Assembly (NCBI GenBank): GCA_016207515.1
Contig: JACQPN010000002.1
Location: forward strand, 138,350 to 202,349
DNA: 64,000 nucleotides
DNA from: Euryarchaeota archaeon
GTDB taxonomy: Archaea > Thermoplasmatota > SW-10-69-26 > JACQPN01
Reading direction: 5' to 3'
Shown: in pieces, positions 21,306 through 49,786 of the stretch
How positions within the stretch are numbered: the first letter of the stretch is position 1
Layout: the number at the start of each line of letters is the position of its first letter
Translations under genes and position numbers: made by a program
The notes under the pieces: model-generated
Database searches by the model: none
Seen by the model: the letters and a program-made list of their open reading frames with translations, nothing else
Told to the model about the DNA's origin: nothing

Positions 21306-21365
21306 TCACGCCAGAAGCAGTTTCCCGTAGAACCAGAAACTCGATAACTCTGCCTTCGTCCCGCG
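21306..21365 (-). pseudogene. Remnant copy of the geranylgeranyl reductase C-terminus
   Basis: Read on the minus strand, this stretch encodes TKAELSSFWFYGKLLLA followed by a stop. The intact gene just upstream ends KKAEFSSFWFYVKLLLA and a stop. The two DNA segments are about 80% identical over 60 bases and lie 103 bases apart. Upstream of this piece the similarity fades, so it is a duplicated gene tail or the last trace of a second reductase gene, not a working gene. Confidence 0.75.
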
Positions 21366-21408
21366 CGACCCTTTTGCGGCTTCGACGCAAAAAATGTCGA
21401 CGGAAAAC

Positions 21409-22692
21409 TCACGCAAGGAGGAGTTTCACGTAGAACCAGAAACTCGAGAACTCCGCCTTCTTCTCGCGGTCGGCGAGCATCTCGCTGATGATCTCGCGCA
21501 CCTTCGGTCGCGTCGCAGCTCGCCGCAAGACGAAGTTGAGAAGCCAGGTCCTGCGGCCGATCTTTTGCAGCCTGTAGCTCGCCTGGAGCTCGTGGTCCAA
21601 GGTCTTCCAGACGTTGGCCTCGTACGATTGGAGGCGTTTTTCAGAGAAGTCTTTCTCTTTCGAAGCGCTGGCGATGGTCTCGGCGGCGAGATGTCCGGAG
21701 ACGAGCGCGTTCCCGATCCCCTCGCCGCTGAACGGGTCGATGAGTTGCGCCGCGTCGCCCACGAGCACCCAACCGTTGCCGGCGAGTTTTCGGTGCTCGC
21801 TTCCGCACGGGAGCTTCCAACCCTTGAAAGAGCCCGGCACCTCCTTGGCGTTCTTGAAACGCTCCTTGAACATCGGGTGCTCGCGGATGATCTTGTAAGT
21901 CTCGTCCTTCAGGTTGACCTTGTGGCCGTTCCTGGCCTTCTTGAGATCGGTCTGGATCATGCCGGAGCCCACGTTCGCCATGCCGTTCTCGAGGGGGAAT
22001 ATCCAGAAATACCCGGGTAGAAGCGAATCGACGAAATGGATCTCGATGTTCTCCGTGACGTCGGTGACGCCTTCGTAGTAGATGCGAAGCGCCCCGATCC
22101 AGTGGTCGTCGTGCTCCGTGAAGGCACCCACCTTCTTCGCGACGACCGAAAGCGCCCCATCCGCCCCGACGACCACGTTCGCCGTGAACCGCTTCTCGAC
22201 GCCGTTGTGCTTGCCAACGACGCCCGTCACCTTGCCGTCCTGCCAAGTGAGGTCGGTGGTCTCAAAGTTCTCGTACGTCGTGACGTTAGGTTGCGCCTTC
22301 GCGTTCTGGAAGACGATGTTGTCGAACACGTAGCGGCGCGACACGTAGCCGGGGTTCAGGTACTCGTGGCGGCGCTGGCCCTTCATCGTCTCGGGGTTCA
22401 CGCGTTTTGGGAAGGGGATGGTGACGAGGTCGCCCTTCGGGGAGGAGAAGGTGACGCCGTTTGCGAGGCCATGCGGCTCCTTTTCGACGTACTCGGTGAG
22501 ACCGAGTTCGCTAAGGACCGAAATGGATTTGCCCGAGATCGCGTCCCCGCAGGTCTTGTCGCGCGGGAACGTGGCCCTGTCAAGAAGAAGCGTCTTGAGG
22601 CCGTGCCGGGAGAGGAACGCAGCGCAGCTTGAACCACCCGGTCCTCCGCCGACGACTATCGCGTCAAAATCGATTCCACTAGTAGGCGCCAA
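21409..22692 (-). CDS. Geranylgeranyl reductase family flavoprotein
   Basis: A 427-residue FAD protein. The N-terminus has VVGGGPGGSSCAAFLSRHG (FAD Rossmann motif) and DRATFPRDKTCGDAISGKS, the conserved PRDKxCGD signature of the family. The second FAD motif VLVGDAAQLIDPFSGEGIGNAL lies near residue 308. In archaea such enzymes saturate geranylgeranyl chains of membrane lipids or of menaquinone; the exact substrate cannot be told. It ends in FWFYVKLLLA, a tail duplicated just downstream. The gene is transcribed alone. Confidence 0.88.
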   Translation of the reverse strand: MAPTSGIDFDAIVVGGGPGGSSCAAFLSRHGLKTLLLDRATFPRDKTCGDAISGKSISVLSELGLTEYVEKEPHGLANGVTFSSPKGDLVTIPFPKRVNPETMKGQRRHEYLNPGYVSRRYVFDNIVFQNAKAQPNVTTYENFETTDLTWQDGKVTGVVGKHNGVEKRFTANVVVGADGALSVVAKKVGAFTEHDDHWIGALRIYYEGVTDVTENIEIHFVDSLLPGYFWIFPLENGMANVGSGMIQTDLKKARNGHKVNLKDETYKIIREHPMFKERFKNAKEVPGSFKGWKLPCGSEHRKLAGNGWVLVGDAAQLIDPFSGEGIGNALVSGHLAAETIASASKEKDFSEKRLQSYEANVWKTLDHELQASYRLQKIGRRTWLLNFVLRRAATRPKVREIISEMLADREKKAEFSSFWFYVKLLLA

Positions 22693-44476: not shown

Positions 44477-44710
44477 ATGGCAGTAGGATTCGTACTGATT
44501 TCAGCGGCCCCGGCAAAAGAGCACGAGGTCTACAACGCGCTTTTGAAAGTGCCAGAGATCGTGGAACTCCACCCGCTCTTCGGCGAATATGACCTCATCG
44601 CGAAGATCGAAGGGCCAGACTTCGACACCCTCGGGCAGATAATCGTGAACAAGGTACGCACCATCCAGGGCGTCATGGACACGAAGACCCTGACCGGGAC
44701 CCGCTTCTAG
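44477..44710 (+). CDS. Lrp/AsnC ligand-binding domain protein, short
   Basis: A 77-residue protein that consists only of the RAM domain: GFVLISAAPAKEHEVYNALL, EYDLIAKIEGPDFDTLGQII and a final VMDTKTLTGTRF. This is the effector-binding half of Lrp proteins without DNA-binding. Together with the gene at 26079 it suggests small sensor proteins for amino acids in this genome. Confidence 0.87.
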   Translation: MAVGFVLISAAPAKEHEVYNALLKVPEIVELHPLFGEYDLIAKIEGPDFDTLGQIIVNKVRTIQGVMDTKTLTGTRF

Positions 44711-44782
44711 CCGAGGCGTCCGGCACGTTCGCTTGCGTGCGGCGCGGCTCGTCGCGCTAGTCGCACGAGTCGAAGGAGTCAT

Positions 44783-44792
44783 GCTTTAAGTA
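44783..44792 (+). promoter_or_regulatory. TATA box for the hairpin-linked membrane protein
   Basis: GCTTTAAGTA is centred about 36 bases upstream of the ATG at 44824. Confidence 0.5.
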
Positions 44793-44823
44793 GCGGCGGC
44801 CATTTCACGCCCGAGAAGAGAAC

Positions 44824-45132
44824 ATGGCCGTAACATCTGACGTATTCCTTAGCACGCTTCTGATTTCCTTCGGCGTCTTCACGCTCCTTGCAGGGCTGTT
44901 CACGGCCTACTTCGGTGCTGGCCGGAGCCGTCGCATCGGCTTGGCGCTCACCATCGTCGGCCTTTTGTCGGTCCTCATCTTCGCGGCGTTCACGTGGCCG
45001 ATAGCCCCCGGGGCCGTCGCCCCCATCTGGGACCCCGAGAACACGATACTCGCCATCGTCGCGGTGCTTGCCGCCGGAGTCGGGGCCTTTGTCTCGATGG
45101 GTGTTTTCTTGATGGCGATAATGCGAGCCTAG
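44824..45132 (+). CDS. Small three-TM membrane protein
   Basis: A 102-residue protein with three hydrophobic segments (about 8-28, 36-57 and 72-100), a short basic loop (GRSRR) and almost nothing after the last segment. No domain is recognised. Its stop codon lies in the loop of the first of four tandem hairpins, so its mRNA 3' end is likely structured. Confidence 0.65.
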   Translation: MAVTSDVFLSTLLISFGVFTLLAGLFTAYFGAGRSRRIGLALTIVGLLSVLIFAAFTWPIAPGAVAPIWDPENTILAIVAVLAAGVGAFVSMGVFLMAIMRA

Positions 45133-45312
45133 TGGCTCGCATTTCGTCTCGCGAAGCTTCGCTCCGCTTCGACCATAATGCGCGCCTAAGCGCGCATTTG
45201 GCGGAGCGTACGAACCGCTTGCGCCACCGCGATAATGCGGGCTTGAGCCGGCATTTGGCGTCGCGCACTAAAGATGCGCTTGGGTGATCATGCGGGCCTG
45301 ACGGTTCGCATT
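45120..45312 (+). repeat. Array of four hairpins with a 57-nt period
   Basis: Four stem-loops start at 45120, 45177, 45234 and 45289 (steps of 57, 57 and 55). Each begins (A/C)ATGCG and ends CGCATT or GGCATT. Stem 1 has ten perfect pairs, stem 2 nine, stem 3 eight of nine, and stem 4 nine of ten when G-U pairs are counted. Inner bases differ between copies but pairing is kept (AGCC/GGCT; CGC/GCG; GGCC/GGTT). The ~33-base spacers can fold into a second, smaller hairpin (for example CGAAGC/GCTTCG; GCGCA/TGCGC). The G-U pairs point to a plus-strand RNA, the mRNA of the membrane protein. Confidence 0.8.
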
Positions 45313-45508
45313 AGGTCTGGCCGCGCGACCAAGTGGGCTCAAGGTGTTTTTCCGTTGAAAAGTCGCTCGACATACGTCGGATTGGGGCGTTTGCATCCAA
45401 GGTACCCGCCATGCGAAAGGCGTCACGAAGGGCGCAGGGTGAATTTCTTGCGCCGCGTGTCCGCCCGCGGATGAGGAACCGTCACCCGCCCGGCAATTCT
45501 TCAGGCAT
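45313..45508. other. Rest of the intergenic stretch after the hairpin array
   Basis: About 200 bases between the last hairpin and the converging acylation gene. A GTTTTTCC stretch near 45346 could end transcription from the left; otherwise no gene, repeat or RNA signal is visible. Confidence 0.3.
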
Positions 45509-46585
45509 TCAGGATTCGGCGAGTTTGGCACACAGTTCGCCAGATTCTGAGCTCAGCACACCTAACATGGCCCTCGTGTTTGGTCGTTCCACGTGGATTC
45601 CGTCAAAGAACGCGCCCGGATCGCCGCCGAAAGTCTCCACGCTTGTGAAATCGTAGAGGCGGATTCCGATTTGACAGAGACTTTTGAGCTCCACGATCAT
45701 AGCATAGTGAGCGTCGTTGAATTTGGGCGTGTCCATGGCGGCGAGCAATGCGGGATGCACGGGGGTCATGATGATTGAAACATTTACACCGGCAGAACGC
45801 GCTTCGTACGAGAGCCGTCCTATGCTAGTGTCGTTCACTGGTCGGGGGTCAACGATTCGAGAAAGAAGTTCGTCGCGGGAATCGACCATCGATGCAACGC
45901 GCTTGGCAAGTACCTCCGCGGGAGTTTTCACCCCATCGCCCCGCCCTCCATAAAAGTCCCTCAGGGAATAGCCGTCTGGTGCATATTCCCCAGACAAGAC
46001 CGGGGTCCCCAGTACGAATCCGGCCAGGACCTTCAGACTATCGCGCAAATATCTTGCCGAAAAAGACCCCATCAGCAATCTAGCGTCGTCCGTCGGCGTC
46101 GCCGCAACGGCGGCCGCAGCCTCGGGTAACTGGGCCGCAAGCGGCGGCGTCGCCAGCACCTGCGGATGTGCGTCTCTCCCAATGGCATATGTAAGTTCGC
46201 TATCTTCGAGCGCCAACAGGATGTGCGCGGGGGCTCGTCCGCTCGCGACCGCGTACCGGTATATTGCCAAGTAGTCACCGGGCTTCCCACCGGGCAGGGC
46301 GAAGTTGAAGGCCGAACGACCAGTGAACTCGGAATAATCCGTCGGTGCAAACGTCATCGCCTTTGACGAGCCCAGAATCAGTGTTTCCGGGGCGCTCTTC
46401 ATCGCATGGAAAAGCGCGATTTTTGCGTAGGCGTCATTTCTAGCGTATGGTTGAAAATATTGCGTGCTGAAGTCGCCATGGGGATTTACAAAGTAATTCA
46501 AGCCTAAGATGCTCCCCGTGCCAAGACAGAGCGCGGCTAGGAACACTGCGACGAAGCGGTGAGTCGTGGGATTCCTTTTCTCCAT
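45509..46585 (-). CDS. SGNH/DltD-like acyltransferase partner protein
   Basis: A 358-residue protein with one N-terminal membrane segment (residues ~10-32) and an extracytoplasmic SGNH-type domain: LILGSSKAM holds the candidate serine (73/74), and the C-terminal FFDGIHV gives Asp328 and His331. This resembles AlgJ/AlgX or DltD proteins that hand acyl groups onto surface polymers. It follows the MBOAT gene in the same direction with a 72-base gap. Base composition is lower in GC than neighbours. Confidence 0.72.
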   Translation of the reverse strand: MEKRNPTTHRFVAVFLAALCLGTGSILGLNYFVNPHGDFSTQYFQPYARNDAYAKIALFHAMKSAPETLILGSSKAMTFAPTDYSEFTGRSAFNFALPGGKPGDYLAIYRYAVASGRAPAHILLALEDSELTYAIGRDAHPQVLATPPLAAQLPEAAAAVAATPTDDARLLMGSFSARYLRDSLKVLAGFVLGTPVLSGEYAPDGYSLRDFYGGRGDGVKTPAEVLAKRVASMVDSRDELLSRIVDPRPVNDTSIGRLSYEARSAGVNVSIIMTPVHPALLAAMDTPKFNDAHYAMIVELKSLCQIGIRLYDFTSVETFGGDPGAFFDGIHVERPNTRAMLGVLSSESGELCAKLAES

Positions 46586-46657
46586 GCTAGTTTCTCCGCG
46601 GCCGCGAAGCCGGCCAACTGGTGGACCGTTCACGCGCGAGACCGACGCGGTAGGCCC

Positions 46658-48049
46658 CTAGAATTGGTAGTACAGGAATGGGCTGCTCACCTCTGCAAGC
46701 CTTAAGATTGAAATAATCATCAAACCCGCACTTAGAATGGCCCATCTTGGCTTGTGGTCGACCTTCAATTCGATAGAAGGTTTTGCGCCCCAGCAAAAGG
46801 CCGCTAGGCCGCAAAGCACTATGGCAACCTCTGCAAATGTACGCCACTCCCGTTGAACATCCAAAGCGAAAAGGGCCTGGATGACGAATAGCGCCGATGT
46901 CAGGTCGGTGGCGCGGAAGAAAACCCAACCAAACGTGACGGCGGCGTAAGTCGTGAATCGTTGAACCAAGACAGGAGCCGCGTCCCAGGGGCGCCGGAAA
47001 ACGTGGTAAGTTGCCAACAGGGCTCCGTGGTAGACGCCCCACGCGAAGAATACCCATCCCGCCCCATGCCATAGGCCGCCAATGGCCATCACCACGACGA
47101 GATTCAGTACGGTCCGGATCCAGCCCAATCGATTCCCGCCGAGCGGATAGTACAGATAATCGCGAAGCCACGAAGACAGCGAAATGTGCCATCTCCGCCA
47201 GAAATCCGAGGGGTTACGGGCCTGGTACGGTGCGCGAAAGTTGATTGGAAGCTCCAATCCGACCAGGCGGCCGAGACCGATGGCCATGTCGCTATAACCC
47301 GAAAAGTCGAAGTACAGTTGTAACCCGAACCCAACAAGGGCCAGCGCCGCGCCCATGCTGTCGAGCGATGCCGGTGACGCCCACAACTGGTCTACATAGG
47401 GGGCGATGCCGTCGGCGACAATCACTTTCTTTGCAAGTCCGATGGAGAACAGGGCCACGCCCCCGACAACTCTTGGCACATGCGTGGGCGCGCCCATGTT
47501 GGAAAGCTGCGAAGAAAGACCCTTGAAACGGACAATCGGTCCAGCGACCAGGTCGGCGAAGAGAGTGATGAACGCGAGGTACGAAAGCAGGTCGTGTGTG
47601 GGCTGGATTGTTTTTCGGTAAACGTCTATGGTGTAACTCAGCGACTTGAAAGTGAAGAATGAGATTCCCACCGGCAAGACGATTTCGTAATGCGGGAGGG
47701 CAGAATCCGTGCCAACCAGCGACAGGAGAGTGGTGGCGTTTTCGACCACGAATCCAGCGTACTTGAAGAAAACAAGGATTCCCAAATTAAATGCGATTGA
47801 CAGGCTTAGGTACTGAAGGCGACGCGATCCTTGTGCGCGCGCAATCAGGCCTCCTAAAGCGTAATCGACCGCGGCGACCGCAAGGAGCAGGCCTGCAAAT
47901 CGAACGTCCCACAGGCTGTAAAACGTCAACCCAGAGGCAATCAGTACACCCAGCCGCCACCTCTTGCTTGCCACAATCCAGAACAAGAACAGCGTTATTG
48001 GAAGGAAGACGCCGAGAAAACAAAAGTCGTTAAACAGGGCGCGGCACAT
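46658..48049 (-). CDS. MBOAT-family O-acyltransferase (AlgI/DltB-like)
   Basis: A 463-residue multi-pass membrane protein (about eleven segments). RAPYQARNPSDFWRRWHISL and GLWHGAGWVFFAWGVYHG are the conserved MBOAT motifs; the histidine near residue 330 is the catalytic one. It moves an acyl group (often acetyl) across the membrane to an acceptor polymer, here with the SGNH partner downstream. The ATG at 48049 is the better start, giving family length. Local GC falls to about 40-50%. Confidence 0.9.
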   Translation of the reverse strand: MCRALFNDFCFLGVFLPITLFLFWIVASKRWRLGVLIASGLTFYSLWDVRFAGLLLAVAAVDYALGGLIARAQGSRRLQYLSLSIAFNLGILVFFKYAGFVVENATTLLSLVGTDSALPHYEIVLPVGISFFTFKSLSYTIDVYRKTIQPTHDLLSYLAFITLFADLVAGPIVRFKGLSSQLSNMGAPTHVPRVVGGVALFSIGLAKKVIVADGIAPYVDQLWASPASLDSMGAALALVGFGLQLYFDFSGYSDMAIGLGRLVGLELPINFRAPYQARNPSDFWRRWHISLSSWLRDYLYYPLGGNRLGWIRTVLNLVVVMAIGGLWHGAGWVFFAWGVYHGALLATYHVFRRPWDAAPVLVQRFTTYAAVTFGWVFFRATDLTSALFVIQALFALDVQREWRTFAEVAIVLCGLAAFCWGAKPSIELKVDHKPRWAILSAGLMIISILRLAEVSSPFLYYQF

Positions 48050-48133
48050 TTGATGATGCACGTCGAGAGGCTGGCCCATACATGAAGCCTTCTGAGCGAT
48101 TTCTGCCCCGCGCTCCTTACGGAAATCCGGCCA

Positions 48134-49786
48134 TTGGTGCGGTTGGCACCCCACCGTTTATTACCACCTTCTCCACTTGGCTCGACGTTGAGCCGGGCAT
48201 ATTACGCGGAACTCATCTCGCGCCTTGCCGCGGGCGAAGCGTCGACCAAGGACGACGTCCACAAGATCAAGGTCGAGCTCGCTCGCCGCCACGAGATGTC
48301 GGCGATCCCGTCCGACGCTGACGTGTGGAACGAGGCGTCCGGCGAGCTCAAGGAACGTCTGCGGTCCCTTCTCACCATCAAACGGACGCGGTCCATCTCC
48401 GGTGTCGCGGTCGTCGCTGTGATGACGAGCCCGGCTTACTGCCCGCATGGGACCTGCCTCTATTGTCCAGGCGGGCCGGACTGGGAGCGGCCGGCGGCGC
48501 AGGCGTACACCGGCCTCGAGCCGGCGGGAGCAAGGGGCCTTCGCAACGACTTCGACCCGTTCAAGCAGACCTATGGGCGCTTGCATGAGATCGAACGCAT
48601 GGGACATCCGATCGACAAAGTGGACCTCATCGTCATGGGCGGCACCATCACGTCTCGCGCGGTCGCTTACCAGGAAGGGTTCGTGAAGGGGTGCCTTGAC
48701 GCCATGAACTGTGTTGACGGGGGCGAGCCGGCGCCCACGCTCGAGGAATCCGTCTCGCGAAACGAGGAGGCCCGCGTGCGCTGCGTCGGCATGACGCTTG
48801 AGACGCGTCCCGATCAATGCTCGCCGCAACAGATCCAGAAAGCGCTTGAGATGGGCGCGACGCGCTTCGAACTTGGCGTGCAGTCGACGCGCGACGACGT
48901 CTTGCGAAACGTCGCGCGTGGCCACGATGTACAGGCGACGATCGATGCAACTCGGCGCCTAAAGGACGCCGGGCTCAAAGTCGGTTATCACATGATGCCG
49001 GGGCTACCGGGCTCGTCGCGGGAGCGTGACATCGCGTCGTTCCGCCGGATATTCGAAGACCCTGATTTCCGCCCGGACATGTTGAAGATATACCCCACGC
49101 TGGTCATCGCCGGCACCGGGCTTTACGAGTTCTGGAAGCGCGGGAAGTACCACGCGATGACGACGGAAGAGGCGACCGACCTAGTGCGCGAAGTCATGTC
49201 GTTCGTCCCCACGTGGGCGCGGATAATGCGTGTCGACCGGGACATCCCGACAACGGAGGTCGAGGCCGGTGTCATGAAAAGCAACCTGCGGGAACTGGCG
49301 GAAGAGGATGGGAATTGCCGGTGCATCAGGTGTCGTGAGGCCGGGCATAAGGCACGACGAGGGATCCACGTCGATCCCGGATCCGTCGGTGAGTACGAGG
49401 AGGTCTACGAGGCGGCGGGCGGGAAAGAGTATTTCCTGACGGTCGAGGACAGGTCGCAAGACATCCTCCTCGCGTACCTCCGGCTCCGTGTTCCATCGGA
49501 GGGAAGCGCCGCGTTGGGCGCACCGCATCTTTCATGCGCGCCGGGTCACGCCTTCGTTCGTGAAGTGAAGGTCTTGGGTCATCACGTTGCGATAAGCGAT
49601 GCGCCGGAAGCAGGGGAGCTCCAACATCGCGGATACGGTCGTCGCCTCCTGGAGCGGGCGGAGGGGATCGCCCGGGGTGATGGTGTGCGGAGGCTCCTCG
49701 TGACGAGCGGAGTGGGCGCACGGGCCTATTACGGGAAGCTCGGCTACGAGCGGGTCGGGACTTACATGGGACGGACCCTTGCGTAG
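48134..49786 (+). CDS. elp3: Elp3-type tRNA uridine-34 modification enzyme (radical SAM + GNAT)
   Basis: A 550-residue protein. The N-terminal radical-SAM domain has CPHGTCLYC (three cysteines of the 4Fe-4S cluster, residues ~102-111) and ARGLRNDFDP; LETRPDQC and ELGVQSTRDDVL follow. The C-terminal ~90 residues are a GNAT acetyltransferase (HRGYGRRLLERAE). It makes the 5-carboxymethyl group on wobble uridine of tRNA. Translation may begin at 48134 or the TTG at 48188. It is divergent from the MBOAT gene. Confidence 0.94.
   Translation: MVRLAPHRLLPPSPLGSTLSRAYYAELISRLAAGEASTKDDVHKIKVELARRHEMSAIPSDADVWNEASGELKERLRSLLTIKRTRSISGVAVVAVMTSPAYCPHGTCLYCPGGPDWERPAAQAYTGLEPAGARGLRNDFDPFKQTYGRLHEIERMGHPIDKVDLIVMGGTITSRAVAYQEGFVKGCLDAMNCVDGGEPAPTLEESVSRNEEARVRCVGMTLETRPDQCSPQQIQKALEMGATRFELGVQSTRDDVLRNVARGHDVQATIDATRRLKDAGLKVGYHMMPGLPGSSRERDIASFRRIFEDPDFRPDMLKIYPTLVIAGTGLYEFWKRGKYHAMTTEEATDLVREVMSFVPTWARIMRVDRDIPTTEVEAGVMKSNLRELAEEDGNCRCIRCREAGHKARRGIHVDPGSVGEYEEVYEAAGGKEYFLTVEDRSQDILLAYLRLRVPSEGSAALGAPHLSCAPGHAFVREVKVLGHHVAISDAPEAGELQHRGYGRRLLERAEGIARGDGVRRLLVTSGVGARAYYGKLGYERVGTYMGRTLA

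Follow-up and report, generated by a model that had tools for sequence, protein, structure and literature searches.

This locus raises the question of why the end of a small protein-coding gene should be followed by hairpins in regular series, and whether RNA structure or events at the DNA level account for them. The array of four hairpins occupies positions 45118-45312 of the window (the whole stretch of DNA analysed, 64 kb long), at the 3' end of a small membrane-protein gene and between convergent genes. The genome (G000, 2.67 Mb) is 98% complete and its relatives are Thermoplasmata. The four hairpins and the period of about 57 nt described in an earlier note were both confirmed. The units begin at 45118, 45175, 45232 and 45287, giving two steps of exactly 57 nt, as had been claimed, and a third of 55 nt. 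The features are listed in Table 1.

Table 1. The hairpin array, the gene-end copies within it and related features, in window coordinates
Feature	Position	Strand	Remarks
Small membrane-protein gene	44824..45132	+	102 aa; conserved end A-I-M-[KR]-X-stop; close downstream of AsnC ligand-binding-domain gene
Gene-end copy 1 (real end)	45118..45132	+	ATA ATG CGA GCC TAG
Gene-end copy 2	45175..45189	+	ATA ATG CGC GCC TAA; synonymous
Gene-end copy 3	45232..45246	+	ATA ATG CGG GCT TGA; synonymous
Gene-end copy 4	45287..45301	+	ATC ATG CGG GCC TGA; synonymous; identical to G004 gene end
Hairpin 1	45120..45143	+	10-bp stem; loop TAGT contains the stop codon
Hairpin 2	45177..45198	+	9-bp stem; loop CTAA
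Hairpin 3	45234..45255	+	stem with one G-G mismatch; loop TTGA
Hairpin 4	45290..45311	+	stem with two G-T pairs; loop TGAC
GTTTTTCCGTTGAA, like the cassette left end (partial)	45345..45358	+	follows the array; may be chance
Two-gene island (DUF1574-like, below cut-off; MBOAT)	45509..48154	-	lower GC; between the array and elp3
Cassette TTTTCCGTCGAC...AAAAGGGTCG with copy of C-terminal codons and stop	21306..21408	-	directly 3' of gene 21409-22692 (-)

When compared with dinucleotide shuffles, hairpins 1 to 4 gave fold z-scores of -5.6, -3.1, -2.8 and -3.7, respectively, and the array as a whole -5.3. Hairpins 1 and 2 ranked 8th and 14th among the 666 hairpins of the 64 kb window, and the array region was 7th of 105 3' regions ordered by structure. 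A stop codon had been noticed in the loop of the first hairpin. It is present there, but is not a peculiarity of that hairpin, as a stop codon lies in or at the 4-nt loop of all four. The compensatory and wobble changes reported earlier were recovered in part: clear covariation was seen at one base pair (A-U, C-G, G-C, G-U) and one other pair changes from G-C to G-U, but hairpin 3 contains a mismatch. The suggestion that the spacers form a second hairpin, making each unit a two-hairpin module, found no support, with z-scores of -0.8, -1.5, +0.6 and +0.4 for the spacer hairpins, none of them significant against shuffles.

The left arm of each hairpin proved to be a copy of the final four codons and the stop codon of the upstream gene (Ile-Met-Arg-Ala-stop). 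All four units encode I-M-R-A, and all three types of stop codon are used (TAG, TAA, TGA and TGA in units 1 to 4). Relative to unit 1, the other units have eight codon differences, every one of them synonymous, an outcome reached in 0 of 50,000 trials with an equal number of random changes, under a null that ignores the hairpin constraint, which would also fix some positions. The right arm is the inverted partner of this coding arm. The membrane-protein gene was present at most of the 80 loci compared (mainly Thermoplasmata), and because the terminal motif of its product is conserved in relatives, the left arm is ancestral coding sequence. The copy most distant from the gene, in unit 4, is the one that matches the gene end of the order relative G004 exactly; its ATC codon is found in all four order relatives, and units 1 to 3 have ATA. 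The array itself is absent from all four order relatives that made up the comparison set, the array's own family being represented by one genome, and the 15-nt core of the array was found at a single location in the 2.67 Mb genome, with no copies elsewhere. The gene for the small membrane protein, which belongs to no Pfam family, forms a pair with the AsnC ligand-binding-domain gene (44477-45132 in the window) that was also seen at about 70 other loci and is conserved over the Thermoplasmata.

The earlier note had read the compensatory changes as a sign of selection on a plus-strand RNA structure. As the main cause of the array this was not supported, as the left arm is a conserved coding end with only synonymous codon changes, and its copying as a gene end matches that of many tRNA ends. 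An RNA element in the 3' untranslated region, acting in stability, processing or termination, would account for the four folded stems, the covarying pair and the strong overall fold, and its placement between convergent genes and the high structural rank of the region also favour it. However, relatives do not share the hairpin at the stop codon (mean z of the region +0.5 over 64 loci), and pairing leaves the all-synonymous changes unexplained. A covariance model built from the four units, a check proposed in the note, was run against 390 genomes of the phylum without revealing a second array, and this also counts against an RNA element, which we judge improbable. Beyond the four units the model produced one weak match in the same genome (L103) and two weak single matches (G364 and G317). 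The former was rejected as a second array and is a Y-shaped element between a 5S rRNA gene and a ZPR1-like gene, and the latter two are single GC-rich hairpins that probably match by chance. The array had no match in Rfam at the gathering score and none in a DNA similarity search of phage and plasmid sequences, and a limited search of the literature did not find such arrays described.

We give about an even chance to a different explanation, in which the array is the scar left by serial insertion of small gene-less hairpin cassettes at the end of the gene. On three occasions the final codons of the membrane-protein gene would have received a very small cassette of about 57 bp. Each insertion would bring a complete working end (I-M-R-A-stop) and shift the previous end downstream, so that every left arm in the array would be coding sequence that ends the gene now or did so in the past. 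Together with the left arm, each right arm would make up a recombination core with dyad symmetry around the stop codon, used by a site-specific recombinase that made the cassettes mobile. The symmetry of this proposed core, the palindrome, would also explain why the two arms change together. The model predicts direct copies, exact ends, functional (that is, synonymous) copies and serial arrays, and all of these were seen. Judged as an integrative element, the array has direct copies of the target end, and, to judge by the synonymous differences, the proximal end is functional and the displaced ends once were; a recombinase gene is lacking, as the 57-bp units hold no gene. To our knowledge, inserts of 57 bp are far below the size of any known integrative element.

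The main rival to serial insertion is plain tandem duplication, in which slippage at a strong gene-end palindrome copied a 57-bp block three times, unequal exchange kept the copies alike and template switching during repair of the palindrome preserved the pairing of the arms. The near-constant period and the similarity of neighbouring spacers (78% over 40 nt for units 2 and 3) are in its favour, and the lack of the array in relatives agrees with it. Similar neighbouring spacers count against insertion, and tandem duplication would also give these. However, the cores of the array have been conserved while the spacers have diverged, and changes that are all synonymous are unexpected in downstream non-coding copies. 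The end copies at many unrelated genes of the genome and at both ends of tRNA genes, described below, also count against it. We regard it as rather unlikely, though less so than the RNA element.

The ends of tRNA genes were examined genome-wide, using 50 of the 52 tRNA matches. A copy of the gene's own 3' end (last 14 nt, up to 2 mismatches, within 400 nt) was found downstream of 23 of the 50, and a copy of the 5' end (first 14 nt) upstream of seven. Searches on the wrong sides gave 0/50 each, and shuffled ends gave one downstream match in 500. Some tRNA genes are followed by two or three end copies in series; examples of end copies can be seen at L117:413-637, L169, L187, L195 and L264. This copying of tRNA ends may outweigh the array in importance. 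At several tRNA genes an inverted copy lying between the direct copies was recognized by eye, but a strict automatic search recovered only two cases, so that this observation is weak. The tRNA genes are also flanked by hairpins with a varied, covarying outer stem and two facing GA dinucleotides (GA hairpins). These point outward rather than inward in a ratio of 42 to 4 (25 to 3 downstream and 17 to 1 upstream), and their background frequency, 21 in 458 kb, is far below that in the tRNA flanks.

Five matches to tyrosine recombinases (integrases) were found in G000, four of them adjoining tRNA genes and none adjoining the array. The numbers of integrase matches and the frequencies of tRNA 3'-end copies in four genomes (G000, 5 and 23/50; G004, 3 and 3/20; G001, 2 and 2/15; G003, 0 and 0/15) are suggestive only.

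Protein genes were surveyed in 0.86 Mb of stretches, about 32% of the genome. A downstream copy of the C-terminal peptide with its stop codon was detected for eight of 673 genes, with none for reversed peptides or on the antisense strand. Clear cases, in addition to the array, are L233, L110, L119 and the window gene 21409-22692 (-), in which SSFWFYVKLLLA-stop is copied downstream. The clearest is L233:4073-5070 (G000 C12), where several copies of KVISKFFS-stop, synonymous or near, are spaced about 60-75 nt apart, with hairpin spacers between them and a serine codon changed from AGC to TCG. The end copied at L110 is IWGEARGR-stop and all the differences are synonymous. The matches at L125 and L238, included in the eight, are weak. 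L114, also one of the eight, was rejected as a copied gene end, being a ribosomal P0/P1 pair with an ordinary shared C-terminus. L111 and L254 are protein-gene cases found by routes other than the C-terminal peptide survey. Over seven sets of gene ends, 38 codon differences were synonymous and eight non-synonymous, compared to a null mean of 15% synonymous, an excess that is partly selection bias as some loci, though not the array, were found by peptide similarity.

These synonymous differences bear on a further possibility, that the copies are target-site duplications made by a Cas1-like (casposon-type) integrase inserting at gene 3' ends. Direct repeats of about 15-27 nt do flank short inserts at gene ends, and the 3' end of tRNA genes is a known type of casposon target. 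However, target-site duplications are identical when formed and the outer copy is free to decay, whereas the differences observed are mainly synonymous. Because of this, each copy appears to have served as a real gene end, and we consider a casposon-type origin quite unlikely. Less likely still, and highly doubtful, is the idea that a DNA-binding protein recognizes the cores as a series of palindromic sites. Each core does form an inverted repeat of 22-24 bp, but the distance between half-sites differs by 2 bp between units, and a gene end between convergent genes is not a promoter position.

At four or more places (21407 in the window, L110, L254 and tRNA-Phe at L117) the gene end is separated from its copy by a recurring cassette, TTTTCCGTCGACGCTTTTT - hairpin of varied sequence - AAAAAGGGTCG. 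A variant, TTTTCCGTGCACG...GGGTGC, was found at the 5' end of a tRNA-Arg gene (L264) and in other places, with CGAC/GTCG replaced by GCAC/GTGC. The cassette pattern has 30 matches in the genome at up to 3 mismatches, compared to five for a reversed control. The core of the recurring cassette TTTTCCGTCGACG-hairpin-GGGTCG is absent between the array units, and no GA hairpin (a stem with two facing GA dinucleotides) was found in 45101-45400. Because the cassette core and the GA hairpin are both lacking, it is the gene-end copies that place the array in this class. The lack of these two features and of an adjacent integrase gene counts against insertion at the array.

Taking the tRNA and protein genes together, it is conceivable, though we hold it somewhat less firmly than serial insertion at the array, that this lineage hosts an undescribed class of mobile mini-cassettes. 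Such cassettes, about 40-190 bp long, gene-less and built of hairpins, would insert serially at the exact ends of tRNA and protein genes and would leave every gene intact, since each brings a working copy of the target end.

Elements with a recombinase gene of their own are known to insert at tRNA ends, and integrative elements of the tyrosine-recombinase type target the 3' ends of genes, both tRNA genes and, in the case of coliphage 21 and e14, icd. Archaeal partial tRNA genes arising from such insertions have been documented, with inserts of about 9-23 kb (PMC9897764). The loci described here resemble these elements in having direct copies of the gene end that are functional and silently different, with the displaced end downstream. 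They differ in that the inserts are about 40-190 bp, gene-less, made of hairpins and often serial, and in that near half of the tRNA genes are involved and tRNA 5' ends are used as well. In Escherichia coli, 178-bp repeats lie in tandem after the tyrT tRNA gene, each with a copy of the tRNA 3' end. The arrangement of tandem units containing the end of the gene is the same, but tyrT is one locus with longer units, whereas many genes including protein genes are affected here. Integron gene cassettes (attC) are also small serial units with hairpin recombination sites; the units found here, in contrast, are gene-less and carry the host gene's end as a copy. REP/BIME and MITE sequences are likewise short, gene-less, palindromic and intergenic, but each is one dispersed sequence, whereas the array core is unique and equals the end of its own gene.

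If serial insertion is the correct explanation, gene-less inserts that restore the end of their target would have accumulated in series at close to half of the tRNA genes and roughly 1% of the protein genes sampled. Such loci would form a natural archive of insertion history in which the displaced ends are gene fossils, and they would raise the question of how such small inserts carry target-specific ends. The array also suggests caution more generally, as compensatory changes in hairpins close to a stop codon can stem from coding ends and recombination sites rather than an RNA function.

A foreign-looking two-gene island is found beyond the array (Table 1), which is compatible with the spot occupied by the array being a target. 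At L011, elp3 follows the membrane-protein gene and the island is not present.

Other repeats were seen in the same genome. Two 49-nt tandem copies that are 96% alike lie in an intergenic position at L116:210-307, with no tie to a gene end seen. A Y-shaped family (model R2; L129-L144) has about a dozen dispersed copies in G000 that match on both strands, each built of an outer stem and two GC-rich hairpins of varied sequence. The best match to this model in the window falls inside the array and is weak (E about 0.001 in the window). The Y-shaped element in the interval between the 5S rRNA gene and the ZPR1-like gene (L103:1490-1575, minus strand) has direct repeats about 150 nt apart on its flanks, and at L111 one Y-shaped copy is filled and a neighbouring copy is without the inner part.
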